A stretch of 41,668 nucleotides of DNA from the IMG/VR virus record IMGVR_UViG_3300028802_000036, positions 1 through 41,668 of that record; one strand, written 5' to 3'. Position numbers and translations under genes: made by a program. Within the stretch, counting starts at the first letter, position 1, and each line of letters opens with the position of its first letter. Positions 13,970 through 40,999 of the stretch are shown here, in pieces. The notes under the pieces are model-generated. The model did no database searches and was not told the origin of the DNA. It saw nothing but the letters and a program-made list of their open reading frames with translations. The stretch comes from a virus.

Positions 13970-14353
13970 ATGCCAGAGACGGAATATGCGGCTGAGGCTG
14001 GCCCGCCCCTGCAGGCGCCGCGGGACCTGACCGACAAAGATGTCGCCGAGAACCTCCTCAAGGACGCGCACCGCGAGCTGAAGATGATGCGGGAGCAGCT
14101 CGCCTTGTGTCACGCCAAGCTGGGCGTGCTCGACCTGGTCGACAGGCTGGTGGGACAGGGCAACCGCCCCATGAGCATGGTCACCTATGGCGGTGTCGAG
14201 TACACGATCGAGCGCTGGCTCCAGGAGAAAAAGCGGCGGTCGGATTACTATGAGCGAATGGAGAAGTTCAAGCAGCAGACCGCGCAGCCGTCGCGGTTCG
14301 ACGAGGTGGGCGACGAGCTCGGTCGCGACACTGCAGGGCGGGAGGGCTACTGA
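13970..14353 (+). CDS. Hypothetical coiled-coil protein (127 aa)
   Basis: The ATG follows a strong GAGGAGGG site, ten bases after the previous stop. The protein is helical and charged (DVAENLLKDAHRELKMMREQ; EKKRRSDYYERMEKFKQQTA), with a short strand insert (MSMVTYGGVEYTIERWL). The stop shares a base with the next ATG. No family is recognised. Confidence 0.58.
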   Translation: MPETEYAAEAGPPLQAPRDLTDKDVAENLLKDAHRELKMMREQLALCHAKLGVLDLVDRLVGQGNRPMSMVTYGGVEYTIERWLQEKKRRSDYYERMEKFKQQTAQPSRFDEVGDELGRDTAGREGY

Positions 14354-15330
14354 TGGCGCTCGACTACGTGAAGAGCCTGCGCGAGATGGACGCCACCGGC
14401 GGCGAGGTGACCCGCCCGACGGTCAAGCGCACTGACGAGGACATCGCCAAGGTCGAGGCGACGACCAGGGCGGTCGAGGCCGAGAACGGGCGCTATGGCC
14501 GGTTCGTCGATCAACGCGGCAAGTGGGCCACTGCCTGGCAGGCCCACGGGCCCAAGACGCCGCTCGTGGCGCCGCGTTTCGTGGCGCCCGGTGTAATCCG
14601 TCGGTCGAGCACCGGCGAGCTCACCTTGGTGCCTCCAGAGGGCGAGGCGCTGCTAATCAATCCGCAGCAGTGGGTGGTGATGTACGATGGCTCGGGCGAC
14701 GCCATCATCGCGGACGACGATCAATTCCGGGCGGTGATGACGTCGGAGGCGACGGTGCGCCGGAAGGTCCAGGCTGAGGTTGAGGAGGTCGAGGAGCAGG
14801 AGGAGCCTCAGGAGGCCGGCCCCGACGTTTACGCTCAACCTACCCCCGGTTCCGCCCCGGGAAACCCGGTTCCCTACCAGATGGTGCCGAGCGTCTCGAT
14901 CGACGGCTTCGTCGCCCAGGTGCTGATCGACAACCAGCGGCTCCGCCAGGAGCTCGCAATCGCCAACACGCTCAAGGTCAATGCGATCGCGGAGCGGGAC
15001 AGGGCCGAGCAGGCACAAGAAGGCTTGAGCCTTGAATACGGCAACATACGCAATCGAGCGGTGCGGCTATGGACGCACGTCGTGAAGGCGATGGGCCATG
15101 ACCCCGACAAGCCTGGCGTAGAGGATCGCGACATCGAGGAGTTCCTCGACGAGGCCGGCCGGCTCTGGGCCGAGGACCAGGCCAAGGTCGAGGAGGCGAA
15201 GAAGGCGCGGGTCGACGAGCCGGCGCCCGCTGTCGTCGTCACGCCCCAGGAGGCCGCCGAGGAGCTGATCCAGCGCCACCCCGAGAAACGATCGAAGTTA
15301 TCCACACCGCAGCCCCGAAAGGAGGGTTGA
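14353..15330 (+). CDS. Hypothetical protein with acidic linker and coiled coil (325 aa)
   Basis: The N-terminal domain (about 1-125) is globular, with a strand-rich middle (LTLVPPEGEALLINPQQWVV). An extremely acidic linker (EVEEVEEQEEPQEAG) and a Pro-rich stretch follow. A coiled coil runs from about 180 to 235, and the C-terminus is charged. The middle recalls small domains that read the MALLINPQQ-type phrase in head or replication proteins, but not convincingly. Its opening MALDYVKSL loosely resembles the YAxGL motif of the virion proteins. Function unknown. Confidence 0.55.
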   Translation: MALDYVKSLREMDATGGEVTRPTVKRTDEDIAKVEATTRAVEAENGRYGRFVDQRGKWATAWQAHGPKTPLVAPRFVAPGVIRRSSTGELTLVPPEGEALLINPQQWVVMYDGSGDAIIADDDQFRAVMTSEATVRRKVQAEVEEVEEQEEPQEAGPDVYAQPTPGSAPGNPVPYQMVPSVSIDGFVAQVLIDNQRLRQELAIANTLKVNAIAERDRAEQAQEGLSLEYGNIRNRAVRLWTHVVKAMGHDPDKPGVEDRDIEEFLDEAGRLWAEDQAKVEEAKKARVDEPAPAVVVTPQEAAEELIQRHPEKRSKLSTPQPRKEG

Positions 15331-15965: not shown

Positions 15966-16162
15966 GCGCGTTCTGGCGGGTGCCCATCAGGGGCGGCGGC
16001 TTCGCCTACCACTGGGGCACGAAGCGCGACAACGTCGACACCGGCATCCGCGAGCAGGATGTGCGCCCCCAGCGGTTCGTGCGGCGCGGTGTCGAGTATC
16101 GCAACGAGCAGGCGGCGCTCGACGCCTGGAAAGCAGAGCAAAAATCGGAGGCCGCAACGTGA
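15962..16162 (+). CDS. Small basic hypothetical protein (66 aa)
   Basis: The ATG overlaps the previous TGA (ATGA). The protein is basic and aromatic (SAFWRVPIRGGGFAYHWGTK; RPQRFVRRGVEYRNEQAALD). No motif is recognised. Its end overlaps the following GTG start. Confidence 0.52.
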   Translation: MSAFWRVPIRGGGFAYHWGTKRDNVDTGIREQDVRPQRFVRRGVEYRNEQAALDAWKAEQKSEAAT

Positions 16163-16839
16163 AAAACGTCCTTCCGCTCAACATCCACAACGTCCACGTC
16201 AAGACCGCCGATGTGCAGCTCAAGGTGCTGACGGTCGGGGGTAAACAGGTCACCCTGGCCGTTTTTCGTCAGCTCCTCCGCCAGCCGCTGATCACGTACG
16301 AGGGCGACCTTGCCGGCATCCCGTGGGGCGTCGTGAACTATCACCCCGACAAGTGCGAGGGCGGCCGTTCGCACTACCATGTCGTCTGGCAAATCGGTGA
16401 CCAACTGCGCCGAGACAACATTCTCGCTGAGCCATCCTTCTTCGACGAAGAAGGGCCTCTTCTGGAGGCCGCTTTCCCGTGGGTGCGGGCGAGGATCAGA
16501 AACTGGATGTGGGGCGGCGACGCTGTCGAGGTCTCAGGAACGAACTACGCCGGCATGCTCGTTCACACAGTCGTGTCTGGCATCCGCCTACACGTTCCCC
16601 TCGATGAGCTCGAGGCAGCAGTGGTGGCCATTTTCCAGCGCAGCCATATCGTCAACACGTACTACACCGACACAGACAAGATCGAAGAGTTTCACTGGGC
16701 GACAGATGGTCAGCCAGGGCTTGAGGCTGCGCGCCAGAGGCTGATCGCTGCCGGCATGAAGGAAGCCGCCCGCCGCCGCAAGGTGCTCGAGACGACGGCG
16801 GGCATCGCTGCACTGCCGCAGCTCTTCATCGCGCTATGA
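16159..16839 (+). CDS. Hypothetical protein (226 aa), GTG start
   Basis: The GTG at 16159 overlaps the previous stop (GTGA). The protein is mixed alpha/beta: VKTADVQLKVLTVGGKQVTL, GVVNYHPDKCEGGRSHYHVV, then helical segments ending in LETTAGIAALPQLFIAL. The phrase Y-H-P-D-K-C-x-G-G-x-S-H-Y-H has closely spaced His and Cys that could bind metal. The same set of residues is not in any family I know. It is the last rightward gene of the middle block and overlaps the convergent leftward gene by six bases. Confidence 0.58.
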   Translation: MKNVLPLNIHNVHVKTADVQLKVLTVGGKQVTLAVFRQLLRQPLITYEGDLAGIPWGVVNYHPDKCEGGRSHYHVVWQIGDQLRRDNILAEPSFFDEEGPLLEAAFPWVRARIRNWMWGGDAVEVSGTNYAGMLVHTVVSGIRLHVPLDELEAAVVAIFQRSHIVNTYYTDTDKIEEFHWATDGQPGLEAARQRLIAAGMKEAARRRKVLETTAGIAALPQLFIAL

Positions 16840-21558: not shown

Positions 21559-21758
21559 TGTTCCACTGGCGTCGCACGAGTGTCCTCGGGACGCTCGACC
21601 AGGTGCGGGCTCGGCGCTACCAGCGGCGCCACCGTCGCGCTCTGGCGCGGTGGGCGGAGTGGCACGGCATCGACGCCTATGGCACGCGGATCTGGATCGA
21701 TTGGGCGCGCTCCCTGCTGCGTGACGAAATGAAGTTCGCGCTCAAGGAGGTCTCGTAA
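21558..21758 (+). CDS. Small basic protein sharing a peptide with the capsid protein (66 aa)
   Basis: The protein is Arg-rich in the first half (RARRYQRRHRRALARWAEW), followed by YGTRIWIDWARSLLRDEM. YG-x-RIWIDWAR also occurs in the major capsid protein (around residue 82), encoded with different codons. The gene is one base from its upstream neighbour and one from the portal start. It may be a minor head component or assembly factor; this is inference from position and the shared peptide. Confidence 0.55.
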   Translation: MFHWRRTSVLGTLDQVRARRYQRRHRRALARWAEWHGIDAYGTRIWIDWARSLLRDEMKFALKEVS

Positions 21759-23869
21759 TGGCCTACGGCGCGGGTGGGGGCATGGCCGGATTGAGCGGGT
21801 ACGTACCAGGCGCGGCACGAGCCTCGCGTGACGTCTCGGGGCGTGACTACGAGGATCAGCGCCGCCGCCGGCGCCAGGGCAGTCAGGTCGACGACCCCGA
21901 GGAGGACGACGAGGACCACGGCTATCCGATCAGCCGGCTCCGTCGTCAGTTCACCGACTTCTCGAGCTCCAAGACCGCGGAGATCGAAGAGGCGCGCATC
22001 GCCCGCCACTACTTCCACAGCGACCAGCTCACCAGCGCCGAGCTGAAGATCTTGAAGGCCAGGGGCCAGCCCGCTGTCGTCCGCAACATGGTCGACAGGA
22101 AGGTCAATGGCGTCGTCGGCTTGATGGAGCGTTTGCGTCAGGATCCGAAAGCCTATCCACGCACTCCCGAGGAGGAGGCGCGCGGCGGCGACGAGCTCGC
22201 GACGGCCGTCGTGAGGTATGTCTTGGACAAACCAAACGACGACGCCCAGGACTGGCCCTCGACGGCCGCGGAGTGCGCGCGCCAGGGCGGCATCGAAGGG
22301 ATCTTCGGCATTGAGATGCTGCTCGAGGGCGGCGACACCTCGACACCTGAAGAGAAGGGCACCGACTACCCCTGGTGGGAGCAAGTCAACGGCCAGGACC
22401 CCGACATCAGCTACGCCAAAGTCGACGGCGACACGTTCTTCTACGACCCGCGCTCGATGCGCCCGACCTTCTCCGACGCCCGCTTCATGGGCTCGGCGAA
22501 GTGGTTGGATGTCGAGGTCGCGATCGACATGTTCCCCGATTTCGAGGAAGAGCTCGAGGGCATGTGCACCTCGGGCGGCACGCTCGAGAGCTGGCAGCAG
22601 CAGGACCGCGAATATCGCTGGGTTGATGTAGAGGAAAAGCGCGTCTTCTTGATCGAGCACTGGTACATCTTCAAGGGAGAGTGGTATTTCTGCTATTACG
22701 TAGGTTATCAGATGCTCCATCGGGGAAAGTCTCCCTTCCTCGATGAAAAGGGCAAGACGTTCTGCCGCTACATTATGGCGAGCGTCAACGTCGACCACGA
22801 CGGCGATAGATACGGCATAATCAGACCGCTAAAGCCCCGCCAGGACGAGATCAACGCCCGTGCCAGCAAGGCACTCCACATCCTCAACGCTCGCCGGATC
22901 ATCGCCGACAAGGGCGCGGTGACCGACGTCGAGAAGGCGCGCCGGGAGGCCGTGCGCGCCGACGGCTACCTCGAGGTGACGCCCGGCTTCCGGTTTGAGT
23001 TCGACGACAACAAGATGGCCCAGGAGTTCGAGGGCCAGCTCCAGCTTTTCCAGGAGATCAAGACCGAGATCGACAACTTCGGGCCGAACAGCTCAATGCT
23101 CGGCGAGGATATACAGAACAAATCGGGCCGCGCCATCGCATTACTGCAGCAAGCAGGCATAGCGGAGTTGGGGCCGTTTATTCTCGTGTATAGGGCCTGG
23201 AAGCTCAGGGTCTATCGCGCGATCTGGAACACCGCGCTCCGCTACTGGAAGGCCGAGCGCTGGATCCGCGTCACCGACGACCAGGAGAAAAACCAGTTCA
23301 TTCAGCTGAACGCCATGCAGATCGACCAGTTCGGCCGGCCGCAGATGGTCAACATGATCGGCCAGCTCGACGTCGACATTTTGCTCGACGAGGGGCCCGA
23401 CACGCTGACCATGATGCAGGATGTCTACGACACCCTGGTCACGATGATGCAGAACGGCGCCCAGGTGCCGCCCGAGATCATGCTCGAGCTCGCGCCCATC
23501 CCCGGCCGCACCAAGAAGGCGATCCAGGCGAAGATGGCCGAGGCCCAGCAGGCCCAGCAGCCCGACCCCGAGCTCGCACAGCTGCAGAAGGCCGGCATGC
23601 AGGCCGGCGTCGCCAAGACGCAGAGCGAGGCGGCTCGGAACCAGGCCGAGGCGGCCAACACCCAGGCGCAGCTCCCCGGCAACGTCGTGAAATTGAAGGC
23701 CGACGCCAACAAGCAGCGCGCCGCGGCGTTCAAGGACGTCACCTCGAGCATCACCGACCTCAAGCGCGCCGGCAACGATGCAAAATTCCGGCAACAGGAT
23801 CTCTACAATCGCGCCGACGGCGGGCTGGGCTCACTGAGCCCCGGCCGCACCCAGGCGCAGGCCGCATAG
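21758..23869 (+). CDS. Portal protein, P22 gp1-like
   Basis: The product has 703 residues, close to P22 gp1 (725). After an acidic and basic lead it has PISRLRRQFTDFSSSKTAEI, PAVVRNMVDRKVNGVVGL, VDGDTFFYDPRSM and LIEHWYIFKGEWYFCYYV, the pattern of P22-type portals. The C-terminal 100 residues are Gln/Ala-rich helix (AEAQQAQQPDPELAQLQKAG), fitting a barrel. The portal is a dodecameric ring at one capsid vertex through which DNA is packaged and released. GGAGG precedes the ATG. Confidence 0.88.
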   Translation: MAYGAGGGMAGLSGYVPGAARASRDVSGRDYEDQRRRRRQGSQVDDPEEDDEDHGYPISRLRRQFTDFSSSKTAEIEEARIARHYFHSDQLTSAELKILKARGQPAVVRNMVDRKVNGVVGLMERLRQDPKAYPRTPEEEARGGDELATAVVRYVLDKPNDDAQDWPSTAAECARQGGIEGIFGIEMLLEGGDTSTPEEKGTDYPWWEQVNGQDPDISYAKVDGDTFFYDPRSMRPTFSDARFMGSAKWLDVEVAIDMFPDFEEELEGMCTSGGTLESWQQQDREYRWVDVEEKRVFLIEHWYIFKGEWYFCYYVGYQMLHRGKSPFLDEKGKTFCRYIMASVNVDHDGDRYGIIRPLKPRQDEINARASKALHILNARRIIADKGAVTDVEKARREAVRADGYLEVTPGFRFEFDDNKMAQEFEGQLQLFQEIKTEIDNFGPNSSMLGEDIQNKSGRAIALLQQAGIAELGPFILVYRAWKLRVYRAIWNTALRYWKAERWIRVTDDQEKNQFIQLNAMQIDQFGRPQMVNMIGQLDVDILLDEGPDTLTMMQDVYDTLVTMMQNGAQVPPEIMLELAPIPGRTKKAIQAKMAEAQQAQQPDPELAQLQKAGMQAGVAKTQSEAARNQAEAANTQAQLPGNVVKLKADANKQRAAAFKDVTSSITDLKRAGNDAKFRQQDLYNRADGGLGSLSPGRTQAQAA

Positions 23870-27063: not shown

Positions 27064-28032
27064 TTGGCGGGCCCCGACGATCCCAGCGACCGTGAATTGT
27101 TCGATGACGCCGTAGGCGGCCTCGACCAGGTCGACGACGATCGCCAGGATGACCGCAATCAACGCCAACCGCAGCCACGAGATCCTCCGACGGGGCGCTT
27201 TGCCACGCGCGAGGATGACGGCGACGACCAGGTCGACGACGACGGCGAGGACGAGGACCAGCCGCGAGGCTCAGTCCCATCTCATCGCCAGCGCCAGGAG
27301 GCCCAGCGCCGCCGGGAAGCGGAGGATCGCGAGCAGCGCTCTCTCCGCATGTTCGACCAGCTGGCACAACGCTTCGGCTCGCTCGAGGAGGAGCTGCGCT
27401 CACTGCGCCAGCCCCAACGAGAGCAGCAGGCGCGGCCCGACGTGTGGCGCGATCCCGACGGGTTCGTGGCCGACATCGACGAGCGGTTCCAGTCGGTCGA
27501 CGAGAGGGCCGAAGCCCTCGTCCGCGACAAGATGATCAACCTGACTTTCAGACGCGAACACCGCGCCCGTGGTCAGGAGTTCGAGCAGGCGTATCGGGCC
27601 TTGCAGGGGATGACCCGGCGGGGCGATGCGGCTGCCGACGAGATCACCAACGACGCGGACCCTGGTGCCGCTCTGATGGAGTGGTACGACGGCGAGCGGG
27701 TACGTCAGGAGGTCGGGAGCGATCCCGATGGGTTTGCCGAGCGACGCGCTGTCGAGCGGATGCGAAGCGACCCCAACTTCAAGCGGCGGATGGCGGAGGC
27801 GCTCGGCTTCGAGCTCCTCGATGATGGCGGCGGCTACGAGCCGCGACGGAATGGCAGAAACGGTTCTCAGACCCTCGTCAGGTTGCCGAGCGTCAACAGG
27901 GCCGGCGGTGGTGGCGGTGGTAACCGTCGCACCGGCGGAAACATGCCTGTGACGGATGGCGACTTCTTCTCGGACGCGGTCGCCGGTCTGCCCATCGCGA
28001 GAGCCCAGGAGAGGGCCCGCCACAGACAATAG
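27064..28032 (+). CDS. Putative scaffolding protein (322 aa), TTG start
   Basis: The TTG at 27064 is the first usable start after an in-frame TAG at 27043. The N-terminus is acidic and disordered (DRELFDDAVGGLDQVDDDRQ), the middle is a charged coiled coil (RQRQEAQRRREAEDREQRSL), and the C-terminus is Gly/Arg-rich. Scaffolds of this type guide coat assembly and are then lost. The position directly before the major capsid gene supports the call. Helices with RREHRARGQEFEQAYRALQG match no enzyme. Confidence 0.75.
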   Translation: MAGPDDPSDRELFDDAVGGLDQVDDDRQDDRNQRQPQPRDPPTGRFATREDDGDDQVDDDGEDEDQPRGSVPSHRQRQEAQRRREAEDREQRSLRMFDQLAQRFGSLEEELRSLRQPQREQQARPDVWRDPDGFVADIDERFQSVDERAEALVRDKMINLTFRREHRARGQEFEQAYRALQGMTRRGDAAADEITNDADPGAALMEWYDGERVRQEVGSDPDGFAERRAVERMRSDPNFKRRMAEALGFELLDDGGGYEPRRNGRNGSQTLVRLPSVNRAGGGGGGNRRTGGNMPVTDGDFFSDAVAGLPIARAQERARHRQ

Positions 28033-28062: not shown

Positions 28063-29229
28063 ATGGCTACGTCAATCATTCAGACTAACAACAAGCTCGT
28101 CCAGTATAGGCGCGAGATTATCCGCGAGTATGTGCGCGAAAACCTGTTTTCGCCGTACATGGGCACGGAGATCACCAGCATCATCAGGATCATCAACGAC
28201 CTGAAGAAGGGCGGTGAACAGATTAACATGCCGCTCGTTACTCGGCTCACCGCAAAAGGCAAGGGTAAAGGCACCCTGGTGGGCTCTGAGGAGCGTATTG
28301 ACAACTACGGAATGAGAATTTGGATTGATTGGGCAAGAAACGCAGTCAAGACAGACAAGTCAGAGCAGCAGAAAGACAGTGCCGACGTCTTCGGTGAGGC
28401 CCGTCCTCTACTGTCAGACTGGGGCAAGGAACTACAGCGCGACGAGATTATTCTTGCGCTGATGGCCCTGCCTTCGGAAAGCCCGCCGGCGGCGCTCGGC
28501 TCCGACGACGGTCAGCGCGTCAATGGCATTTTGTTCGAGCAGTCGACCGCGGCCCAGAGGAACACCTGGAACGCCGACAACAGCGACAGGGTGCTCTACG
28601 GCGCGACTTCGCTGAACTACAACGCGACCTTCGCCACCGCTTTGCTCACCGTCGGCCCGTCGCCGACCGATGACCTCACGGCGCCGACCGTCTCGCTGGC
28701 AAAGCTGCTCGCGAAGAAGGCCAACCCGCGTATTCGTCCGTTCAAGCTGACTGACGGCAGAGAATATTTCGTGATGTTCAGCGGCTCGCTGAGCTTCCGC
28801 GATCTGAAAATCTCACTGCAGACAGTAAATAAAGACGCTCGCCCGCGCGAAAACTCGAGCGGCGAAGGTGATGCACCGCGGAACCCAATATTTCAGGATG
28901 GGGACCAGATCTATGACGGTGTCATCGTCCGCGAAGTGCCTGAGATCGACATCATGCTCGAGGAAAACTGGCCGCTCCTGCTGACCGGCGGTGCCGGCGG
29001 CATCAGGGCGAACCCGAACTTCCTCTGCGGACAGATGGCGGTCGGCCTCTGCTATGGCCAGATGCCTCGTCCGACGTTCCTCAAAGAAGATGACTATGAC
29101 TTCTTGACGGGCGCCGGAGTAGATATGTGCTACGGCATAGCAAAGGCGTTCAAGAAACACCCGATGGATGGTACAGCGCTCAAGCAGTGGGGCGTCTTTA
29201 CTGTCTTCACGAGCAACAGCGCGACTTGA
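28063..29229 (+). CDS. Major capsid protein, N4-gp56/DUF4043 family
   Basis: The product has 388 residues. QINMPLVTRLTAKGKGKGTL, then GSEERIDNYGMRIWIDWARN, DVFGEARPLLSDWGKELQRD and YFVMFSG follow the N4 gp56-like coat family. This is the HK97-fold shell subunit. Codon choice is less GC-rich here than in neighbouring genes (for example GGAATGAGAATTTGGATTGA), as often seen in highly made coat genes. A strong hairpin follows the stop. Confidence 0.88.
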   Translation: MATSIIQTNNKLVQYRREIIREYVRENLFSPYMGTEITSIIRIINDLKKGGEQINMPLVTRLTAKGKGKGTLVGSEERIDNYGMRIWIDWARNAVKTDKSEQQKDSADVFGEARPLLSDWGKELQRDEIILALMALPSESPPAALGSDDGQRVNGILFEQSTAAQRNTWNADNSDRVLYGATSLNYNATFATALLTVGPSPTDDLTAPTVSLAKLLAKKANPRIRPFKLTDGREYFVMFSGSLSFRDLKISLQTVNKDARPRENSSGEGDAPRNPIFQDGDQIYDGVIVREVPEIDIMLEENWPLLLTGGAGGIRANPNFLCGQMAVGLCYGQMPRPTFLKEDDYDFLTGAGVDMCYGIAKAFKKHPMDGTALKQWGVFTVFTSNSAT

Positions 29230-30887: not shown

Positions 30888-32315
30888 ATGGTCGACATCG
30901 TCTTCCCCCCTTCGACGGCACCAGCGCTCTTGCCGGCCGAGAGCGGGGGAAGGCTGATCAATGCGTACGGGGAGCCCCTCGCCGGGGCCCCTCCTGCCCA
31001 GTACGTCATCCGCCGCACCAGCGGGCTGAGCAAGTTCAGCGGCACCGGCATGACGCGGCCCTACCGCAGCTCGTTCTTCGACGGCACGCTCTTCTACAGC
31101 GCCTGGAACGGGCAGCTCGTAAAAACCGACAGCGCCGGCCTCTCGACGAACTACACCGCGCTCGCCGGCACCGACTGGGTGACGTGGGCGAGGAACCAGA
31201 AGACCCCGACCGCCGACAACGTGCTCGTCTGCGGCGCCGGTGCGTTCACGTTCGACGGCGCCGGCAAGGCGGCCTGGGCGGCACCGCCGGCAGCACCAAA
31301 TTCAGTGTGCTTCGGTGAGGGGTATTTTTTTACGACCATTGCAGACGGCAGGGTTTATGCCAGTGGCCTAAACAGTACGACCATCAACACGCTCGACCGC
31401 GTGCAGATCCAGAGCCGCTCGAATGATGGCCTGGTGCGCGGCGTCTGGTGGGGCGGCGAGCTGTGGGTCTTCTCCAACGTCCACTGCGAGGTCTGGGGCA
31501 GCGGCGGCAATCCGAACCTCACCGGATTTCCGCTGCGCCGCACGACGGTCATCGACCGCGGCCTGCGGGCGATCAGCTGCATCACCGGCTGGGAGAAGGG
31601 CTTTGGCGGCAAGCTCTGCTTCCTCTCCGACGACAACACCATCCGCGCGATGGACGGCTATACGCCGACCGTCATCAGCGAGCCGTGGCTGACGACCTTC
31701 CTCGAGAACGTCACCGACACGACGACGCTGTCGATGGGCTGCTTTATCAGGCGCGGCCACCAGTGCATCTACATCCGCGGCGATGACTTCTGCTTCTGCT
31801 ATGACTTCTCGACGGGCTGGTGGCACGAGCGTGCCTCGTATCTCTCGAACACCTGGCGCTGGATGGGCGGCAGCTCGCTCGCCTTCAATAATTGGCTGAG
31901 CGGCGACGCCTTCACCGACAACATCAGCGCGATCGATTTCACGCGCTTCGACGAGTACGGCAACTCGCTCCTCTGGCAAGTCGAGAGCGGGCCGGTGCAA
32001 GACTTCCCGGCACGCACGGCCGTGGCGCGGGCGACGTTTCAGTTTCAGCAGGGGACCGGCATCCTCGACGTCGTCGGGGCCCAGCAGGCCGACGTCAACC
32101 CGCAGCTCGAGATCAGCTGGAGCGACGATAACGCCGCGAGCTGGTCGAACCCGCTGCAGCGGCCGATCGGCCGCCTCGGCGAATACAAGAACGTCATCGA
32201 CCCGCGAATGCTCGGCATGACCGGCTACGTGGGCCGGCGCTGGCGCCTTCAATGTAGCGCACGGGTCGCCGTGTCGCTCCTCGGCGGCATGTGCCTGATG
32301 GAGGAGAGGGCGTAA
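30888..32315 (+). CDS. Packaged-DNA stabilisation / tail hub protein, P22 gp10-like
   Basis: The product has 475 residues, against 472 in P22. Key phrases: AESGGRLINAYGEPLAG, RGVWWGGELWVFSNVHCEVW, CYDFSTGWWHERASYLSN, SWSDDNAASWSNP. The pattern of a long beta-propeller-like protein with W-H-E-R and S-W-S-D-D matches the phage stabilisation family. Gp10 closes the portal channel after packaging and anchors the tail needle and spikes. It follows the adaptor and Gp49-family genes, as expected. Confidence 0.85.
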   Translation: MVDIVFPPSTAPALLPAESGGRLINAYGEPLAGAPPAQYVIRRTSGLSKFSGTGMTRPYRSSFFDGTLFYSAWNGQLVKTDSAGLSTNYTALAGTDWVTWARNQKTPTADNVLVCGAGAFTFDGAGKAAWAAPPAAPNSVCFGEGYFFTTIADGRVYASGLNSTTINTLDRVQIQSRSNDGLVRGVWWGGELWVFSNVHCEVWGSGGNPNLTGFPLRRTTVIDRGLRAISCITGWEKGFGGKLCFLSDDNTIRAMDGYTPTVISEPWLTTFLENVTDTTTLSMGCFIRRGHQCIYIRGDDFCFCYDFSTGWWHERASYLSNTWRWMGGSSLAFNNWLSGDAFTDNISAIDFTRFDEYGNSLLWQVESGPVQDFPARTAVARATFQFQQGTGILDVVGAQQADVNPQLEISWSDDNAASWSNPLQRPIGRLGEYKNVIDPRMLGMTGYVGRRWRLQCSARVAVSLLGGMCLMEERA

Positions 32316-34303
32316 TGGCCACGAAAAAGAAGGCGGCGGCAAAGAAGAAGGCGGCTTCCCCGAAGGTCGACTATGCCAAGGGCCTGGCCGCAGCGAAGCC
32401 GGCCGCCAAGGCCGCCGCAGCTCCAGCGAAGAAGGCCGCCGCCAAAGCGCCGCCTCCGAAGGTGGCCGCGAAGGCGCCGGGGAAGAAGGTCGTTTCGGAC
32501 CCGCCGAAGAAGCCGAAGGGCAAGAGCAGCGGTGGCGGCAAGAGCCCGAACTACGCCGGCGGCCTCAAGGGTAAGGGCAGTAACAGCCTCAACCCCGCTC
32601 TCGGCGGTGGACGCACGGCCACCGGCAAGGGCGGCGGCGGCGGCAAGGGCAAGAACCAGGGCGCCGGCGGCGGCGGTGGTGGCGGCGGCGGAAGCAAGGG
32701 CAAGAACCAGGGCGCCGGCGGCGGTGGCTCGCTCTTCGCGCCGTTCAACACCAAGGCCGAGGAGGCGATCCGCAAGATCACGGTGAAGGGGCTGAGAAAG
32801 GCCCAGCACCAGGTCGTCAACAACCTCACGAAAGGCCAGGAGAACTACAAGAACCGGATCGACAAAGGCGAAAAGGCGATCACAACCGGCGAAACCACCG
32901 GACGCCAGGACATCAAGTCGAGCGTCAACAAGGCGGTCTCGGGCGTGACCCGAGCGGCCGATCGCGCCCGCGGTGACGTGACCTCGTATAACACCCTCGC
33001 CAGGAGCAACATCCGCGGCGGCGAGACCAAGGCCCGCGGCGACATCTCGAAAGGTGCGGCGACCGGGCGGAGCGACATCAAGACGGGCCTCTCTGGCTCG
33101 GAGGGCGCGCTCGGCAGCGGCCTGTCGAAGAGCACGGGAGCTCTCACCACCGGCCGCGACAAGTCGCTCAGCGCTCTCTCTGCGGGCAAGGGCGAGACGC
33201 TCGGCGCGCTCGGCGCTGGCCGCGCGAAGAGCCTCAGCGCGCTCGACACGGCGCACACCGCGGCCAGGGGTGACATCACCTCGGCGCGCGATACCTCGCT
33301 CGGCTACTACGACCCCTATGCGGCGGCCGGCGCGAAGGGCAGCAACAGCTACGCCGACGCGCTCGGCCTCAACGGTCCCGAGGGCGTGGCGCGCGCCAGG
33401 GCGCAATTTCAGACGGGCCCGGGCTATGACTTCGCCATGGAGCAGGGGTTGACCGGCGTCGACCGGCGGGCGGCTTCGCGCGGCGAGCTCGGTGGTGGCG
33501 GCAACACCATCGACAGCATCACCTATAGCCAGGGCCTGGCGAACCAGGAATGGCAGAACTACCTCGGCCGCCTTGAGGGCGAGCAGGCTCTCGGCGCGAC
33601 CACCGCCGGCAGCATGGCGGACATCACGGGCACTGCGGGCTCGGCGCTCTCGGGCCTCGACACGGGCTATGGCCACGATGTCGCCGGCGTCGAGACACAG
33701 TACGGCCAGAACGTCGGCGATGTCGCGACCGGCTACGGCCACGACGTGGCGGGCCTGCAGACGCAGTTCGGCCAGGACGTCAGCGGCCTCAACACCGACT
33801 ACGCCAAGGGCCTCGCGGACCTCCGCACGGGGGCCGCTACCGGCCTCGCCAACATCGCCGGCCAGGAGGGCACCAACCTCGCCAACATCTCGAGCGCTGC
33901 GGCGGGCGACGTCGCGGCGAATGAGGTAGCCGCCGGCAACCAGCTCGCCAGCATCGGCACCAACGCAGCGACCACTGCCGGCGGCTACGAGACGGCCGGC
34001 GGCAAGGACATGGCCAACCTGACGGCGGACGCCTCGGGCCGTGTCCTCAACGCCGACGTGCTCGCCGGCAACCAGAACTACAATTTCGCCACCGATCTCG
34101 CCAACATCAAGAACGCCACCACCACCGGCATCGCGGCGGCGAACAGCGCGAAGCAAGCGGCGAAGGACGCCACCGGCGCCAACATCTGGGGGACCGTCCT
34201 CGGCGTCGGCAACACTGCGGCCAACCTCGCCACCGGCCGCCTGCCGACGACCAACGCGACGAGCGGCGTGCAGACCAATCCTCCCTCGGTCGTGAGGGTC
34301 TGA
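32315..34303 (+). CDS. Internal virion / DNA-transfer protein with histone-like N-terminus and 11-residue repeats (662 aa)
   Basis: I start at ATG 32315. Residues 1-70 are Lys/Ala/Pro-rich (KKKAAAKKKAASPK), like histone H1 tails. A Gly/Lys-rich segment follows, then 11-residue repeats at 196-327 (for example ARGDISKGAAT, SLSALSAGKGE). A conserved phage ejection segment (RARAQFQTGPGYDFAMEQGL, GVDRRAASRGELGGGG) comes next, then more 11-residue repeats from about 450 (TGYGHDVAGVE, TQYGQNVGDVA, TGYGHDVAGLQ). The motif [ND]YAxGL occurs at 19-24, 79-84 and 495-500. Such proteins travel with DNA during infection. Hendecads suggest a long helical rod. Confidence 0.75.
   Translation: MATKKKAAAKKKAASPKVDYAKGLAAAKPAAKAAAAPAKKAAAKAPPPKVAAKAPGKKVVSDPPKKPKGKSSGGGKSPNYAGGLKGKGSNSLNPALGGGRTATGKGGGGGKGKNQGAGGGGGGGGGSKGKNQGAGGGGSLFAPFNTKAEEAIRKITVKGLRKAQHQVVNNLTKGQENYKNRIDKGEKAITTGETTGRQDIKSSVNKAVSGVTRAADRARGDVTSYNTLARSNIRGGETKARGDISKGAATGRSDIKTGLSGSEGALGSGLSKSTGALTTGRDKSLSALSAGKGETLGALGAGRAKSLSALDTAHTAARGDITSARDTSLGYYDPYAAAGAKGSNSYADALGLNGPEGVARARAQFQTGPGYDFAMEQGLTGVDRRAASRGELGGGGNTIDSITYSQGLANQEWQNYLGRLEGEQALGATTAGSMADITGTAGSALSGLDTGYGHDVAGVETQYGQNVGDVATGYGHDVAGLQTQFGQDVSGLNTDYAKGLADLRTGAATGLANIAGQEGTNLANISSAAAGDVAANEVAAGNQLASIGTNAATTAGGYETAGGKDMANLTADASGRVLNADVLAGNQNYNFATDLANIKNATTTGIAAANSAKQAAKDATGANIWGTVLGVGNTAANLATGRLPTTNATSGVQTNPPSVVRV
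32900..33295 (+). repeat. Twelve degenerate 33-base (11-residue) coding repeats
   Basis: The segment encodes twelve consecutive 11-residue units with recurring A-R-G-D-[IV] or S-L-S-A-L starts and small residues at fixed places. DNA identity is low, so the period shows mainly in the protein. It would suit a right-handed coiled coil. Confidence 0.7.
33662..33859 (+). repeat. Six 33-base (11-residue) coding repeats
   Basis: The units read TGYGHDVAGVE, TQYGQNVGDVA, TGYGHDVAGLQ, TQFGQDVSGLN, TDYAKGLADLR and TGAATGLANIA. The first four are clearly related in DNA as well as protein. More degenerate 11-residue units appear to continue past the region. Confidence 0.82.
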
Positions 34304-35802
34304 TGGATCCGAAGACCAACTACGCGGCAATGCTGAAGGCGCGGAAGAAGCCGCCGCGCAACTCCGAACCCTCGTCGCTCGATCTGCTGCGCGATCGGTT
34401 CGGCCCGCCGGTCTCCGATCTGTTCGCGGAGCCGCAAATCCCGCGCCTGGACGAGGCCGGAATACAGCAGGCATTGGACGAAGCCGGCAACCTCATGTTC
34501 GAGGGGACGATCGGCGGCAAGGGGATCAAGGCGCCGAAGGGCAAGGGCAAGAAGGCGCCAGTTGACGACGCCTTCGATCCCGAGGCGCGGATGCGGGGGA
34601 AGACCGGCGAGGAGAGCGCCGGCGATCTCTTCGATCTCAGCCGCGAGACGCTCGAGAAGCGGCCCGACCGTCCGCAATTCGATCTGCCGCGGAACGTGCC
34701 GGCGCGCGGCGCGAGCGAGCGCATCCTCGACCTCACCTCGCGCGGCGATGTGCGCGACGAGATGAAACGCTACGCCCTCGAGGGCGTCGAGAAGGGCGGC
34801 AAAGGCTGGTATAACCTCCAGCAGCTCCGCGACCGCTTCGTCAGCGAGTACGGCGAGGACCGCGGCGACCAGGCCTTCCGCCGCTACGTCGACATGATGT
34901 CGGCCACCTCGCCACGCTCCAAGCTGCCGGCGAACATCAAAAATGCCTCGCTCTACTATCACCTGTCGATGGGCGGCAAAGAGGTTCCCCGCGGTGGCAA
35001 CGAGCCTTTCAGGACCGAGATCCCGCCGGAAGACTACACGCCGAAATACGGCTCCGAGAGCGCGCCGGAAGGGTCGCTATACTCGCCGGCACAGCCAGGC
35101 TACGGCCACCTGGCGCAGAACCTCCACCGCATCAACGTGCGGGAGGCGCTCTCGCCTGAGGGCTGGGATGTCTTCACACATCCGAAGCCGCCGAGCTACG
35201 GCGAGAACCTCTACGGCAACTGGCGGCCTGCGACGATCGACGCGCACGCCATCAAGCTGCCGGCGATGATCTCGGGCGACCCGCGGTTCCTGATGGGGTC
35301 GAACACCGTCAAGGACAAGTTCGGCAACAAGATCACCACCAACCCGGCGAAGGACTACAAGGAAGGCCGCCTGACGCTCGAGGAGGCCGCCAAGGATCCG
35401 AAATATTGGGAGGTCCAGCCGCGGGCGAACGAATACCCGGCCATGGAGCGCTACTACAAGGACATCGCCGACGAGCTCGGCATGGACCCGGCGCAGTTCC
35501 AGGCCTCGGGGTGGACCGGCGGCGGCGAGCGCACCGGCCTCGGCTCCGACGAGAACAAGAGCGCGCTGGAGTTCTTCGCTGACGCGGCGATCGCCGCAGC
35601 CAAGAAGCGGGGCGTGCCACCGCGGCAGATCGTGCGCGACTTCATCCGCGGCAAGATCCCGCTCGCCGTCGCCGGCGGCGGCGCCGCAGTCACCGTCGAC
35701 GCGCTCGACAACGACACTAAACAGCAGCTCGGCATCGGCGGCCGTGACGCGCCTCCTCGCGGCGACTGGGCTGCCGGCCTCAAGGAAGGGGAGGTCTACT
35801 GA
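34303..35802 (+). CDS. Virion-associated protein with DUF7178-like domain (499 aa)
   Basis: The opening MDPKTNYAAMLKARKK carries the YAx[GM]L motif, and the end GDWAAGLKEGEVY repeats it with W for Y. The core (about 150-330) has GWYNLQQLRDRFVSEYGEDR, MMSATSPRSKLPANIKNASL and YGHLAQNLHRINVREAL, resembling a phage domain I recall as DUF7178, of unknown function. A C-terminal hydrophobic stretch (IPLAVAGGGAAVTVDAL) may touch the membrane. It sits between two ejection-type genes, so it is probably an internal virion protein. Confidence 0.6.
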   Translation: MDPKTNYAAMLKARKKPPRNSEPSSLDLLRDRFGPPVSDLFAEPQIPRLDEAGIQQALDEAGNLMFEGTIGGKGIKAPKGKGKKAPVDDAFDPEARMRGKTGEESAGDLFDLSRETLEKRPDRPQFDLPRNVPARGASERILDLTSRGDVRDEMKRYALEGVEKGGKGWYNLQQLRDRFVSEYGEDRGDQAFRRYVDMMSATSPRSKLPANIKNASLYYHLSMGGKEVPRGGNEPFRTEIPPEDYTPKYGSESAPEGSLYSPAQPGYGHLAQNLHRINVREALSPEGWDVFTHPKPPSYGENLYGNWRPATIDAHAIKLPAMISGDPRFLMGSNTVKDKFGNKITTNPAKDYKEGRLTLEEAAKDPKYWEVQPRANEYPAMERYYKDIADELGMDPAQFQASGWTGGGERTGLGSDENKSALEFFADAAIAAAKKRGVPPRQIVRDFIRGKIPLAVAGGGAAVTVDALDNDTKQQLGIGGRDAPPRGDWAAGLKEGEVY

Positions 35803-36803
35803 TGGCGCTCGACACGCGGTTCAATCTCGACCCGGCGAAACTGCAGCCGAATAGCGATTACGCCAGGCTCCTCTACGAGGGCACCGCAGGCATCGGCGAC
35901 ACGATCCAGAAAAACCGGGCGACGAGGGCAAAGCTCAATCTCGAACGGGAAGCGGAGCGCAATCGCGTCGCGCTCGCCGGCCAGGAGAGCGAGTGGCGGC
36001 GCCTCGAGGCCGAGCGCGAGCAGCGCAATTGGGACGCCACGATGGCGCTCAACACGCGCAAGGAAAACTTCGACGAGGCGCACCCGCCGCACACCTCGCC
36101 CGATTTCTGGCAGCCTGACCCCAACAAGCCCGGCGCGCTCATGCCAACGGTCGGCGGTCCATACGACAAGGACAGGATCGCGGAGATAGCCAAGGCGAGG
36201 TATCGCACGCCTGGCACCAAGCTGCTGCCGAAACCGCTGCAGGACGACCTCACCGTTGACGGTCAGGATCTCGGGAACATGGGCCGCATCACCACAACGT
36301 GGAAGCCGGACTACGGCGGCCACACGGCGACCGGCGAGTTGACGAACGATCTGGGAAGGATGGGCTTCGGCGCCAGCAACAAAGACCAAGCCAACTGGTG
36401 GGCCGACTACCGGGCCAACATCGCCTCGATCAAGCGGAACCGGCTCTATGGCGCGAGCCTGACCGACAACGAGCGCGCGGACTTCGATCGCAACGACATC
36501 AACCCGGGAATGGACGCCGGACTGATCCAGAAGAACCTCACGCGGCAGCGGGACATCCTCCGCATCGCCGCCACCAGGAAGGCCGGCGGGCTGATCGCGC
36601 AGCAAGCCGATCCGACGGCGGTCGAGCAGTACCTGGGCATTCACCTCGAGGATCTCGGCTTCAAGATCAAGCGCGGCAACGACAACAGAATTAGCGAGAT
36701 CACCGAGTTCCCTGTCATCGAGGGCATGGACTTCGGCTCGGGCGGCTACAGCACCGCCGGCAGCGATCCCAATAGCCTCGGCACTATCCAGCCGTCCGAG
36801 TAA
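35802..36803 (+). CDS. Putative internal virion protein (333 aa)
   Basis: The ATG shares its A with the preceding stop. The N-terminus PNSDYARLLYEGTAG holds the YAx[GL]L motif, and a long charged helix follows (KLNLEREAERNRVALAGQES). A middle domain contains SLTDNERADFDRNDINPGMD, and similar phrases occur in unnamed podovirus internal proteins. No enzymatic motif is visible. Location in the ejection block makes an internal virion role likely. Confidence 0.6.
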   Translation: MALDTRFNLDPAKLQPNSDYARLLYEGTAGIGDTIQKNRATRAKLNLEREAERNRVALAGQESEWRRLEAEREQRNWDATMALNTRKENFDEAHPPHTSPDFWQPDPNKPGALMPTVGGPYDKDRIAEIAKARYRTPGTKLLPKPLQDDLTVDGQDLGNMGRITTTWKPDYGGHTATGELTNDLGRMGFGASNKDQANWWADYRANIASIKRNRLYGASLTDNERADFDRNDINPGMDAGLIQKNLTRQRDILRIAATRKAGGLIAQQADPTAVEQYLGIHLEDLGFKIKRGNDNRISEITEFPVIEGMDFGSGGYSTAGSDPNSLGTIQPSE

Positions 36804-36815
36804 GGGCACCAGGTC

Positions 36816-38930
36816 ATGGTCGACTATCCCAATAACGCGCCCGCGGGTGTCAGCTTCACCGACGACCCGCAACTGACCTCGCTCGCGGGGAGCAGCCTTC
36901 CGCGCGGCGTGAACTATGCCCAGGGCCTCGCCGCGCAGGCCGCCATGGCGCAGGGCGGCTCGGGAGGCTCTACGGCGGCACCGGCGGCGCCGGCCGCGTC
37001 AGCGGGCTCCCCAGCCCCCGCAGCGGCCTCGTCGGGCACGTACCAGCCGCCGGCGCGCATCGACCTCGGCTACCGCGCCCCCGAGGCCAAGGGCGCCGCG
37101 GACAGCGCTGCCCGCATGTCCGATGTCGGCAAGGTCTTCGCGGGCGAGGTGCCGTTCCACGCGCTGCCGCCGAGCTGGCAGGGCCGCCTGCACGAGGCCT
37201 TCGGGCCCACGGCGCCGGCGCACTACGATGCGTTCCGCGCCAAGGTGGCTGCGGTCTCGCCGCAGGCCCAGATGGAACGCGACTTCGGCAACATCGCCGC
37301 CGGCCGCGGTCGCTCGGCCCTCCCCGACCGGGACTACCGCACGACGGCCGGCCAGGAAGCCTCAGGGCCGCCCTCTGGCACGATCATGCAGCCGCGCGGG
37401 CCCTCGGGCACCATCCTGCAGCCGGGGCAGCCGGATGCCGTGGGCGGCACCATCTCGCCGCCGCAGTCGACAGTGACCATGAACCCGCATCAGCCGGTCG
37501 GCTTTGAGGGCAACCCGGCGTTCCAGCCGTCGAACACCGGCGCCATCTCGCCGAGCGAGGTCACCGCCACCGACGCCTTCGGCGGGGCGCAGGCCAACGG
37601 CCCCGGCACGGCCGGCGGGCCACCTGGTGGAGCTCCTCCCGCTCCCGGCGCCGCCGGTGGCCCGCCCGATCCGCGCCTGCGGCCCGGCGATGCCGAGCAG
37701 CCCCCGGGCCCGGGCTCGAGCATCACAGTGAAGCCTGGCGACAATCTCTGGACGATCGCGCGTGACACCCTCGGCGATCCGCGCAAGGCCAAGGAGATCG
37801 CGCAGCTCAATAACATCCGGCACCCGTCAATGATCCACCCGGGCCTGGTGTTACGGCTACCCGGCGGGATGGATCCGGCGAACGTTGCCACGCCGATTAT
37901 GAGGCCGGGTGCCCCCACTACCGCGGGACCGCCGCAGCCAGCTCCACCGCAGCCAGCTCCTCCTCCGCCGGCTCCGCCGGCGCAGCCTCCGCCAGCGGAT
38001 TTTTCCGGCGGCGGTGGCGGCAACATCGGCCAGATGGGCCAGGGCGACGAACTCGACGACCTCACCCAGGCCGCTGCGGTGCGGGCGCACGAGATGCTCA
38101 GCGGAGACACGTCCGACCACCTGGACGAATACCCTTTTCACCCTGGCGGAGGCGACGTCGGCGCGCCCCCGCCGGTTCGTCCTTCGCCGGCGGCCTCCAG
38201 TGAGCCTCTCACCCATACCGGCGGCCCGGGCACCGGGCGCTACGCCGCGCCGCCGGCGGCGGTCATCCGCGAGCCTGGCTACCAGCGCTCGCTCGAGATG
38301 CAGCCCGCCGTCGATCGTGCGGCGCAGGAGCGGGCACGGGGCCTTGAGCCCTATCGCGACCCCGGTGCGCTCGGGACCGACCCGGCGAGGATGGAGCGGA
38401 TGCGGCAGGAGCTCCGGGCGGGCGGCAAACATGCTGACTACTCTGGCCCCCTCAAGCTCGCAGGGATGGGAGACATCCTAAAATCTCATCCCTACCCGCG
38501 CTCGCCCGGCTGGCGGGATCCGATGCTCGACATGCAGCAGCAGTTCGAGGATACGACCATTCCAGGCGAGTTTCCGCATGGTCGCCCGCCGGAGATCCTG
38601 CTTCGGCCGGAGACCCCCAACTTTTACCGGGATCGCCAACTGAATAGAGGCTACGGCGATCAGCCAGACCTCCATCTCAGCCGGCAGGCGGCGCTCTCTG
38701 CCAACGACAACGGCCTGCCTGGCGTGCCGGCGATGACCAACCCTGGCCGGCCGCTGCCGAGAGCGCTGCAGCCCAACATCATGCCCGACTATCTGCGCGG
38801 CCAACGTCCGCTGCCGGTCGGGCGGCCCGCCAACCAGGCGGCGCTGAGTGAGATCCTTCAGGCGCGCCAGCACCGCTTTGGGCTGCCCGAGAGCATCCGG
38901 CGGCAGCTCGAGCTCGAGGGGTATGCCTGA
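36816..38930 (+). CDS. Large virion protein with LysM domain and disordered Pro/Gly-rich regions (704 aa)
   Basis: Near residues 304-350 is a LysM domain: SITVKPGDNLWTIARDTLG, IAQLNNIRHP, IHPGLVLRLPGG. LysM binds peptidoglycan. The flanks are Pro/Gly/Ala-rich and disordered, including GVNYAQGLAAQAAMAQ (YAxGL motif, residues 33-38). The C-terminal 200 residues have Arg/Pro-rich repeats. A wall-binding role during DNA ejection fits a LysM inside the ejection block. No muramidase motif is seen, so it may anchor other wall-active proteins. Confidence 0.72.
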   Translation: MVDYPNNAPAGVSFTDDPQLTSLAGSSLPRGVNYAQGLAAQAAMAQGGSGGSTAAPAAPAASAGSPAPAAASSGTYQPPARIDLGYRAPEAKGAADSAARMSDVGKVFAGEVPFHALPPSWQGRLHEAFGPTAPAHYDAFRAKVAAVSPQAQMERDFGNIAAGRGRSALPDRDYRTTAGQEASGPPSGTIMQPRGPSGTILQPGQPDAVGGTISPPQSTVTMNPHQPVGFEGNPAFQPSNTGAISPSEVTATDAFGGAQANGPGTAGGPPGGAPPAPGAAGGPPDPRLRPGDAEQPPGPGSSITVKPGDNLWTIARDTLGDPRKAKEIAQLNNIRHPSMIHPGLVLRLPGGMDPANVATPIMRPGAPTTAGPPQPAPPQPAPPPPAPPAQPPPADFSGGGGGNIGQMGQGDELDDLTQAAAVRAHEMLSGDTSDHLDEYPFHPGGGDVGAPPPVRPSPAASSEPLTHTGGPGTGRYAAPPAAVIREPGYQRSLEMQPAVDRAAQERARGLEPYRDPGALGTDPARMERMRQELRAGGKHADYSGPLKLAGMGDILKSHPYPRSPGWRDPMLDMQQQFEDTTIPGEFPHGRPPEILLRPETPNFYRDRQLNRGYGDQPDLHLSRQAALSANDNGLPGVPAMTNPGRPLPRALQPNIMPDYLRGQRPLPVGRPANQAALSEILQARQHRFGLPESIRRQLELEGYA

Positions 38931-40999
38931 TGCAGGTCCACTTCAACTATCCCGACGGCACGAGCGACACGGTTGAGGCGCCCGACAAGGCGACCGCCGC
39001 GGCCATGGCCCAGCAGAAGGTCAACGCCTGGGCTGCCGGGCGTAGCGGCGGCCGTAACGACGACGCGCTCGGCCCCGTCCTCGAGGGCATCACCGGCGGC
39101 TGGCTCGACGAGGCCTCGGGCGGCGTCGGCGCGCTGATCAGCGCCATGGGTGGCGGCACCCTCGAGGAGGGCTATCGCCGTGGGTTCGAGGGCAGCAAGG
39201 GCCGGCGCGAGGGGTTCGCGAAGCGGAACCCGAAGACCTCAACGGCGCTCGAGCTCGCCGGCGGCGTCGGCTCCTTCGCGCTCCTCCCCGAGGTCAAGGC
39301 TGCCCAGGCGCTCGGCGGTGCCGCCAGGCTTGGCCGCGTCGGTGCGCGTCTGACCGACGCTGCAGCGACTGGCGCGGCCTATGGCGGGGCGGCTGGCGCC
39401 GGCTACGCGGAGAGCCCCGAGGGCCTCGACAGTAGGCCTATCGATGTGGCTGCCAGCACGGTCGGCGGCGCGCTCACCGGAGCGGGCCTCGGTGCGGGCC
39501 TCGGTGCGGGCGGCGAGGCGGTGCTCGGCGGGGCAGCGGCTGCCGGCCGCGGGCTGCGGCGCGCTGTCATGGGCGACGTCACCCGCGCCGATGTCGAGCG
39601 CACCGTCGGCCGCAACGTGCGCCGTGAGCATGGCGGCACAGTCGACGACCTCGTCAACGAAATGCGCGGCCTGCAGGGTGAGGGCTACGACGTCCGCATC
39701 GGCGACATGGGCGGCGTTCGCACCCGGCGCATGGCGCGGGCGGCGGCCGACATCAGCCCCGAGGCGCAGCAGACGCTCGAGGGCGTCACCCGGCCGCGGT
39801 TCGAGAGCCAGAGCGGGCGCACCCAGGCGGCGATCGAGCGCGAGAGCGGCGGCGTCGGCGAAGAGACCCGTTTCGGCATGGGCGACCGCATCCGCGCGGC
39901 AGAACGTGAACGCGGCGCGCTCTACAACGAAGCCTACCAGCGCGGCGACGAGGGCATCCCATGGTCGCCCGAGCTCGCCGACCTGGCGCACGACGACCCG
40001 ACCTTCCGCGAGGTCATGCGGACGGCTGCCCAGCGGCTGCAGCAGAACAATCATGCGGCGCGGGCACGCGGTGGGCGGCAATGGGATCTCTATGGCCGCG
40101 AGCCCAGGCCGGCCCGGGGCATTGGCGACAACAGCGGCAGCGGCTCTGGACCGCGTGGCACGCTCGCCTACTGGGACCAAGTCAAGCGCGAGCTCGACCG
40201 CCGGATCAACGTCGCCGGCACCAACGAGGGCGGCCGGCAGACGGAAGAGGCCCGCGCGCTCGACATGATGCGGCGGACGCTCGTCGAGCACCTCGACAGC
40301 CACGTGCCGGCCTATGCCCATGCCCGTGGCCGGGCGCACGATCTCTTCGGCGGGCGCGATGCGCTGCAGATCGGCGAACACGCCTTCGACACCGGCATGA
40401 CCGGCACCGAGATCCGCCGCGTGCAGGCCGAGCTGACGCCGTCGGAGCGGCGGCTGTTCCAGATGGCATGGATCAGCAAGATGCAGACCCACGTCCGCCA
40501 GATGGGCGACACCACCGACATTGGGAAGAAGATCGCGGCGAGCGACCATGCGCGCGACCAGCTCGTCGCCGTGTTCGGCCGCGACCGGGCCGAGAACCTG
40601 ATCCGCCATCGCGACATCGAGCGGCGGCTGAACCTCCTCGACATGGAGGTGCGCGGCAACAGCAAGTCGGTGCGCTATGCCATCGGCGCGCTCGGCGGCG
40701 CCGGCATTGGCGCGCTCAGCTCGGGCGGCAATCTCTTCGACACGCGGACATGGATAGGCGCTGGTCTCGGTGCGGCTGCAGCTCTCGGCTTCGGGCGCAC
40801 GCGGGCCGCGCTGTCGGGCATGATCAACGAGCGAGCGGCGCAGTGGGTCGCGCACGCGCTGACCAGCCGCGACCCCGAGCTGCTCCGCCGCATCGCGAGT
40901 ATGGGACAGCGCGACCCGCAGATCCGCGAGGCAATTTCACGGCTCGGTCGAGTGGGCGCCGGCGTCGGCACCATGGGCACCGAGCAGGCGATGCATTGA
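38930..40999 (+). CDS. Putative DNA-ejection / pore-forming internal virion protein (689 aa)
   Basis: The ATG shares its A with the preceding stop. Residues 1-35 form a small domain (VHFNYPDGTSDTVEAPDKAT) seen at the start of several phage internal proteins. Gly/Ala-rich hydrophobic stretches follow (GGALTGAGLGAGLGAGGEAV; AIGALGGAGIGALSSGG), and long helices with TRPRFESQSGRTQAAIERES. Gly-zipper segments suit insertion into a membrane, as in ejection proteins such as P22 gp16. No enzymatic motif is obvious. It is the last gene before the collar fibre. Confidence 0.7.
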   Translation: MQVHFNYPDGTSDTVEAPDKATAAAMAQQKVNAWAAGRSGGRNDDALGPVLEGITGGWLDEASGGVGALISAMGGGTLEEGYRRGFEGSKGRREGFAKRNPKTSTALELAGGVGSFALLPEVKAAQALGGAARLGRVGARLTDAAATGAAYGGAAGAGYAESPEGLDSRPIDVAASTVGGALTGAGLGAGLGAGGEAVLGGAAAAGRGLRRAVMGDVTRADVERTVGRNVRREHGGTVDDLVNEMRGLQGEGYDVRIGDMGGVRTRRMARAAADISPEAQQTLEGVTRPRFESQSGRTQAAIERESGGVGEETRFGMGDRIRAAERERGALYNEAYQRGDEGIPWSPELADLAHDDPTFREVMRTAAQRLQQNNHAARARGGRQWDLYGREPRPARGIGDNSGSGSGPRGTLAYWDQVKRELDRRINVAGTNEGGRQTEEARALDMMRRTLVEHLDSHVPAYAHARGRAHDLFGGRDALQIGEHAFDTGMTGTEIRRVQAELTPSERRLFQMAWISKMQTHVRQMGDTTDIGKKIAASDHARDQLVAVFGRDRAENLIRHRDIERRLNLLDMEVRGNSKSVRYAIGALGGAGIGALSSGGNLFDTRTWIGAGLGAAAALGFGRTRAALSGMINERAAQWVAHALTSRDPELLRRIASMGQRDPQIREAISRLGRVGAGVGTMGTEQAMH

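Follow-up and report, generated by a model that had tools for sequence, protein, structure and literature searches.

A six-residue motif was found to recur, mostly near the termini, in several mutually unrelated late proteins of the P22-like podovirus IMGVR_UViG_3300028802_000036, whose record of 41,668 bases is referred to below as the window. From these analyses it appears likely, with a probability of about 0.6, that the motif serves as a short linear docking tag by which internal proteins, ejection proteins as well as effectors, are loaded into the assembling procapsid.

The strict pattern, [ND][YW]A.[GML]L, was chosen post hoc, after the window had been seen. A sequence-only reading had pointed to the motif before, and all eight strings it quoted were found in the genes named. 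The check proposed there, a search of the phage and its relatives against shuffled sequences, was carried out. Eight matches were obtained in the 2,462 residues of five late proteins, where shuffling within each protein led to an expectation of 0.02 (maximum 1 in 2,000), and six of the matches lie no more than 45 residues from a protein end (1.5 expected; P = 0.0007). The motif is thus above chance given composition, and its sites are kept in two close relatives. The earlier statement that it stands at protein ends applies to these six matches but not to the others. One, PNYAGGL at residue 79 of the protein encoded from position 32315, is non-terminal, within a low-complexity N-terminal stretch rich in K, G and A; the other, TDYAKGL at residue 495 of the same protein, belongs to an internal repeat array, T.YG..V.GL, of which it forms one unit. 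The N-terminal-proximal tags of four proteins start at residues 6, 19, 19 and 33, and C-terminal copies exist as well. In the remaining 51 open reading frames (ORFs) of the window (10,907 residues) a single match was detected, NYAGML at 16543-16560, which is internal (residue 129 of 226 in ORF 16159-16839) and is taken as chance. For background, 1.12 million residues from 237 other loci of related or partly related phages were searched, yielding eight matches and never more than one per locus; several of these represent an internal segment of gp7-family proteins, NYAQGLA. As had been noted, the carriers are otherwise dissimilar (blastp of all against all, E>1), and homology between them was rejected on these grounds. 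Recent copying at the DNA level was also rejected: the codons differ at each tag copy, and the tags are therefore either old or convergent.

Two close relatives served as a held-out test of the pattern, though some of their sites are orthologous to those of the window. In IMGVR_UViG_3300025936_000049 (G001; coat 96%, portal 87%, ejection genes 52-62% identical to the window) eight strict matches were found with 0.02 expected, and in IMGVR_UViG_3300045051_000730 (G002; coat 80% identical) three with 0.01 expected. G001 keeps most sites of the window and has gained four, with the strings VDYAKGL, RDYAAGL, TDYARGL and LDYAGGL. One is at residue 35 of the ortholog of the 34303 protein and one at residue 40 of the ortholog of the 35802 protein (window proteins are named by gene start); the LysM protein has the other two, at residue 610 and, as LDYAGGL, at its extreme C-terminus. 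In G002, the tag is present at both ends of the protein in the 34303 position, which itself is only 24% identical, and a protein of 67 residues ends with VDYAAGLKRGG. An ORF of 68 residues in G001, below the size cut-off of the first scan and found afterwards, ends with LDYAAGLRR. The ortholog of this small protein in a third phage, L151, ends in IDYYGDMKAAMR.

This phage, L151, whose coat protein is 82% identical to that of the window and which belongs to the same species as L163 (99.5% nucleotide identity), contains no strict match at all. Instead, a dialect of the motif, D[FY]xx[DE][LM], is distributed across unrelated proteins: VDFHGDLK near the N-terminus of the gp7-like protein, IDYYGDMK at the C-terminus of the small protein and RDFYGELK at the second site of the gp20-like protein are at orthologous sites, and VDFFTDLK is found in an additional small ORF. 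Another dialect, [NDST]YAx[EQR]L, is used by G005 and G006, with coat proteins 54% identical to the window. There it occurs on a protein of 83 or 85 residues (MQDYASRL), at the N-terminus of the gp20-like protein (NYAAQL/NYAGEL), in the LysM protein (NYAAQL plus SYAQRL/TYADRL) and, in G006, in a 462-residue ART-PolyVal protein (NYAAEL plus TYAERL). When dialect labels were permuted within protein families, tags of non-homologous proteins resembled each other more closely inside a dialect group than across groups (P = 0.0006 for six phages in three groups). Judged by these sequences, the motif instances co-vary within a lineage.

A de novo, class-based search, run on protein ends without prior knowledge of the motif, gave [ND][FYW][AGS]..[LMIV] as the top pattern in the window, G001, G005 and G006, and [ND][FYW][FYW]..[LMIV] in L151. 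Empirical P values for these patterns were 0.01-0.02, and their scores exceeded those of every shuffle except in the window. Among 16 controls, untagged relatives and other phages, 15 showed no pattern with P<0.05.

The first tagged protein of the window, encoded at 32315-34303 on the plus strand like the other tagged, ejection-module, portal, scaffold and coat genes of the window, is a gp7-like DNA-ejection protein of 662 residues (phrog_598, E=2e-10), whose tags are in its low-complexity N-terminal stretch. They are DYAKGL (residues 19-24; 32369-32386), a site recognisable in G001 (IDYAKGL), G002 (IDYAKGI) and L151 (VDFHGDL), and NYAGGL (residues 79-84; 32549-32566), with LNYAAGL at the aligned place in G001. 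The repeat-borne DYAKGL (residues 495-500; 33797-33814), for which G001 has GYGRDV, was judged not to be a tag. The gp7-like proteins of the window clade and of L151 comprise 662-719 residues, compared to about 210-255 in untagged relatives, because of short helical-looking repeats; those of G005 and G006 are shorter. The next gene (34303-35802) specifies a putative cargo protein of 499 residues with a DUF7178-like domain (Pfam PF23802, below cut-off). Its tags are NYAAML (residues 6-11; 34318-34335), identical in G001 and absent from homologs in other phages, and DWAAGL (residues 488-493; 35764-35781), 12 residues before the C-terminus, with GWAAGL in G001 and GDYAAGL in G002. In the AlphaFold2 model a confident core of about residues 102-456 is flanked by tails of low confidence (predicted local distance difference test, pLDDT, <50; residues 1-101 and 477-499); both tags are on these tails, outside the folded domain, and the tails are probably disordered. 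No significant match of the model to the PDB was obtained with Foldseek. Weak matches of the core (E>=1) include several 8-oxoguanine DNA glycosylases, which are not significant. Predicted proteins from other phages, in some cases parts of very large polypeptides, resemble the core.

The protein in the gp20 position (35802-36803; 333 residues), assigned by its position and a low-confidence AlphaFold2 model with a long predicted helix, carries DYARLL (residues 19-24; 35856-35873) at the predicted start of this helix (mean pLDDT 57). Its N-terminal segment can be aligned between phages in which the bodies of the protein barely align. It is followed by a LysM-domain late protein of 704 residues (36816-38930; PF01476, E=7e-8) with NYAQGL (residues 33-38; 36912-36929) and a degenerate copy, DYSGPL (residues 541-546; 38436-38453), aligned with the C-terminal DYAGGL of G001. 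The last ejection-module gene (38930-40999; phrog_5880) specifies no tag in this phage. A fifth tagged protein, rich in Met, Pro and Gly and 264 residues long, is encoded at 2676-3470 and contains NYAAGL at residues 252-257 (3429-3446). It has no family match in Pfam or PHROGs, and no homolog was found in G001 or G002.

The 2676 gene had been described as 30 kb away from the others, but this distance was not correct. The ends of the record join with a 1-nt overlap to give a tail-fibre ORF of 289 residues that aligns over its full length (62% identity) with an intact gene of G001, and the contig is therefore a complete circular map. On this map the gene is located about 5.4 kb downstream of position 38930, as the last gene of the same late operon, which makes a virion location of the 264-residue protein more plausible. 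In this operon, the genes for portal (21758-23869; PF16510, E=7e-96), scaffold, coat and Hc3 (30888) are followed by the 32315, 34303, 35802, 36816 and 38930 genes, the tail-fibre gene across the contig ends, four fibre or other genes, and 2676. The P22-like assignment is based on the portal, coat (PF13252), Hc3 (phrog_578) and DNA-ejection (phrog_598) modules detected with Pfam and PHROGs. All genes are ORF calls on metagenomic contigs, and the L151 contig is partial. Most bacterial genomes carrying related coat genes belong to Rhizobiales. A tag-like start outside the virion genes, MALDYVKSL, is seen in a protein encoded at 14353-15330 of the window, upstream of the terminase genes.

The position of the 34303 gene appears to be a cargo slot. 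Non-homologous tagged proteins occupy it, the DUF7178-like protein in the window and G001, the 24% identical version in G002 and the ART-PolyVal protein in G006. The latter (L238:6664-8049) has an ADP-ribosyltransferase domain (PF18760) and two N-terminal tags. The DUF7178-type relatives that were checked in other phages are without comparable terminal tags. Likewise, a small domain, MPFxKxGPDxYxSPSGRxxNxAQVRLYYA, is present in several unrelated phages (L002:13443-13649, L227:13938-14141, L151:6041-6349 and L251-L256), and it has a C-terminal tag in the tagged clade only; phages outside the clade lack such an end. Among known phage records, no near match to this phage was found. The tag is absent from Pam5, Pam1, P26218, ct2G2228 and MJing1, and also from prophages, rhizobial ones among them, whose coat proteins are 57-63% identical; CRP-901 contains a lone NYAGAL. 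A short, predominantly aromatic motif that differs from phage to phage is often present in duplicate at the start of the last ejection-module gene of untagged relatives (NFFDQFD, NWWxAAPLA, NWWESAPLVEQ, SFDDLIP, GPWxKY and PRFxGxPV; L164:8239, L172:13882, L245:17576, L246:16523, L247:17522 and L242:13302).

We propose that the tag is placed on a flexible N- or C-terminal tail of each cargo protein and that one phage-encoded receptor, most likely the scaffold or the inner surface of the coat, would bind it during procapsid assembly. The receptor would recognise the aromatic residue together with a leucine roughly one helical turn further along, [ND]-aromatic-x-x-x-[LM]. All proteins with the tag would be co-packaged and later ejected with the DNA, and the tag would stay uncleaved. 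Receptor and tags may co-evolve, giving each lineage its own dialect, and new cargo genes could join by acquiring a tag. According to an account of P22, the N-terminal parts of gp7 and gp20 suffice for procapsid entry, the scaffolding protein is required for incorporation of ejection proteins, and the portal is dispensable (PMC8402733). Binding to scaffold or coat during procapsid assembly is therefore proposed, and by analogy these candidates are favoured over the portal. Of the earlier suggestion, a docking or packaging tag for the portal or ejectosome, the tag is well supported by sequence, while the partner is not supported, the portal being dispensable in P22. The candidate receptors are the predicted scaffolding protein (27064-28032), recognised by its location immediately upstream of the coat gene and by a family alignment, and the major capsid protein (28063-29229; PF13252, E=5e-37, phrog_334). 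Many predicted scaffolds of the family (window, L150, L163, L179 and L153-L181) have much the same short motif, [ST][DN]xx[LF]FxxA, at their two termini, in lineage variants, and these termini are possibly paired coat-binding ends. Their motif (DFFxDAVxGL) resembles the tag only in L151/L163 (DFFTDL versus DFFNDA) and not in G005/G006; the likeness is suggestive only and is not relied on.

A wider version of this proposal is an address code, for which we would put the chances somewhat below even. One procapsid receptor would read the six-residue tag, at either end and in at least one copy, on all internal proteins, effectors gained by horizontal transfer among them; receptor and tag would co-evolve into lineage dialects, a captured gene would become cargo once it gained a tag, and particles of related phages would not mix their cargo.

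Other functions of the motif have to be weighed against loading into the procapsid. It might link internal proteins to each other in ejectosome or core assembly, or bind the portal barrel after the procapsid has assembled. All four main tagged genes belong to the ejection module, a protein often has more than one copy of the tag, as for multivalent cross-linking, and P22 ejection proteins are described as clustering near the portal barrel (PMC8402733). Nevertheless, this appears unlikely, as tags are also found on apparent effector cargo, the ART-PolyVal and 67/68-residue proteins, for which no conduit role is needed, and incorporation in P22 is reported to be independent of the portal (PMC8402733). 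Still less probable is an action after ejection, in which the motif would bind a periplasmic or membrane component of the host or hold the proteins together in the periplasm. Ejected proteins do work in the host envelope, and a host receptor could drive changes of the motif between lineages, but tags on a probable cytoplasmic effector, the ART-PolyVal protein, fit packaging more readily. In T4 and phiKZ-like phages, internal proteins are cleaved near their N-termini, and the motif could accordingly be a processing site or propeptide boundary cut in head maturation, as in T4. However, no prohead-protease domain was detected with Pfam and PHROGs among the head genes tested, and tags occur at both ends and in several copies, where a C-terminal cut would free only 9-14 residues, making this explanation very improbable.

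Two further explanations concern the origin of the motif and are given hardly any weight. It could be inherited from one family, as a copy of the conserved internal segment NYAQGLANQ of gp7-like (phrog_598) proteins, which recurs in untagged relatives and in G005 and accounts for several background matches (L164, L175, L245). This segment ignores the dialects, reading FAQGT and YSQGV in L151 and G006, unlike the tags of these phages, and the tagged proteins are non-homologous to each other; as a tag it was rejected. The least credible is a compositional accident, or low-complexity convergence in high-GC proteins rich in Ala, Gly and Leu. The proteins are indeed rich in A, G, K and P, and the pattern was defined afterwards, yet composition-preserving shuffles gave 0.02 matches instead of eight, orthologous sites are recognisable within variable sequence, and a tag is also in line with the two new phages, the hidden ORF and the changed dialects. 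Comparable clusters were present in none of the 237 loci, and chance was rejected. An ssrA-like degron was also dismissed, since the tag does not form the extreme C-terminal end.

Several points weigh against a docking tag for procapsid loading. The dialect test rests on only six phages, and the instance in a 148-residue protein of L151 was picked by eye. In the de novo search G002 gave a different pattern, and one control, L245, reached P=0.04 with an unrelated one. A G002 protein encoded upstream of the terminase genes (L226:15481-16527) begins with MTDYAAGL and is not virion-like; either it is cargo too, or the match is due to chance. A gene-presence comparison revealed no gene common only to tagged phages, and no receptor was singled out. 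In P22, moreover, each ejection protein seems to use a separate binding site.

By comparison with known systems, the best explanation is that the tag works like the capsid-targeting sequences (CTS) of T4 and P1, differing in that it is common to many proteins and can be at either end. The T4 CTS is N-terminal and cleaved by the prohead protease. Here, too, short signals are near the N-termini of internal proteins, but the tag is found at either end and is often repeated, and no protease family was detected in the head genes searched. The T4 signal brings internal proteins as well as foreign fusions into the head (PMC8402733, PMC9024508). In P1, N-terminal residues of DarB, of which 30 are sufficient and about 6-10 critical, direct this large effector into the head, and a consensus among the Dar N-termini was sought without success (PMC9024508); in the phages described here, one consensus is common to many proteins, with lineage dialects. 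The proteins gp7, gp20 and gp16 of P22 correspond in module position and in portal, coat and Hc3 type, but no shared motif is mentioned for them in the account cited (PMC8402733). Effector domains such as ART-PolyVal are known among the virion genes of phages, in polyvalent proteins for which packaging and injection have been predicted (Iyer et al. 2017, PMC5512222); the relevant part of that work describes no packaging signal, whereas here one such protein carries the tag of its clade. Outside phage assembly, there is a likeness to encapsulins, whose cargo enters an HK97-fold shell by means of a cargo-loading peptide that is short, terminal and borne on a flexible linker. The motif is another one, and the encapsulin receptor is the shell, while the coat is here only a candidate.

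The selection of ejection proteins for the procapsid is still a question in P22-like phages, and a common signal, not found when sought in P1 (PMC9024508), would make it directly testable if it is shared and varies in dialects, which allow swap experiments with clear outcomes. The tag could also serve to load chosen proteins into phage shells. For the phages themselves, it predicts which uncharacterised proteins are packaged and points to putative effectors, the ART-PolyVal, DUF7178 and Met/Pro-rich proteins.

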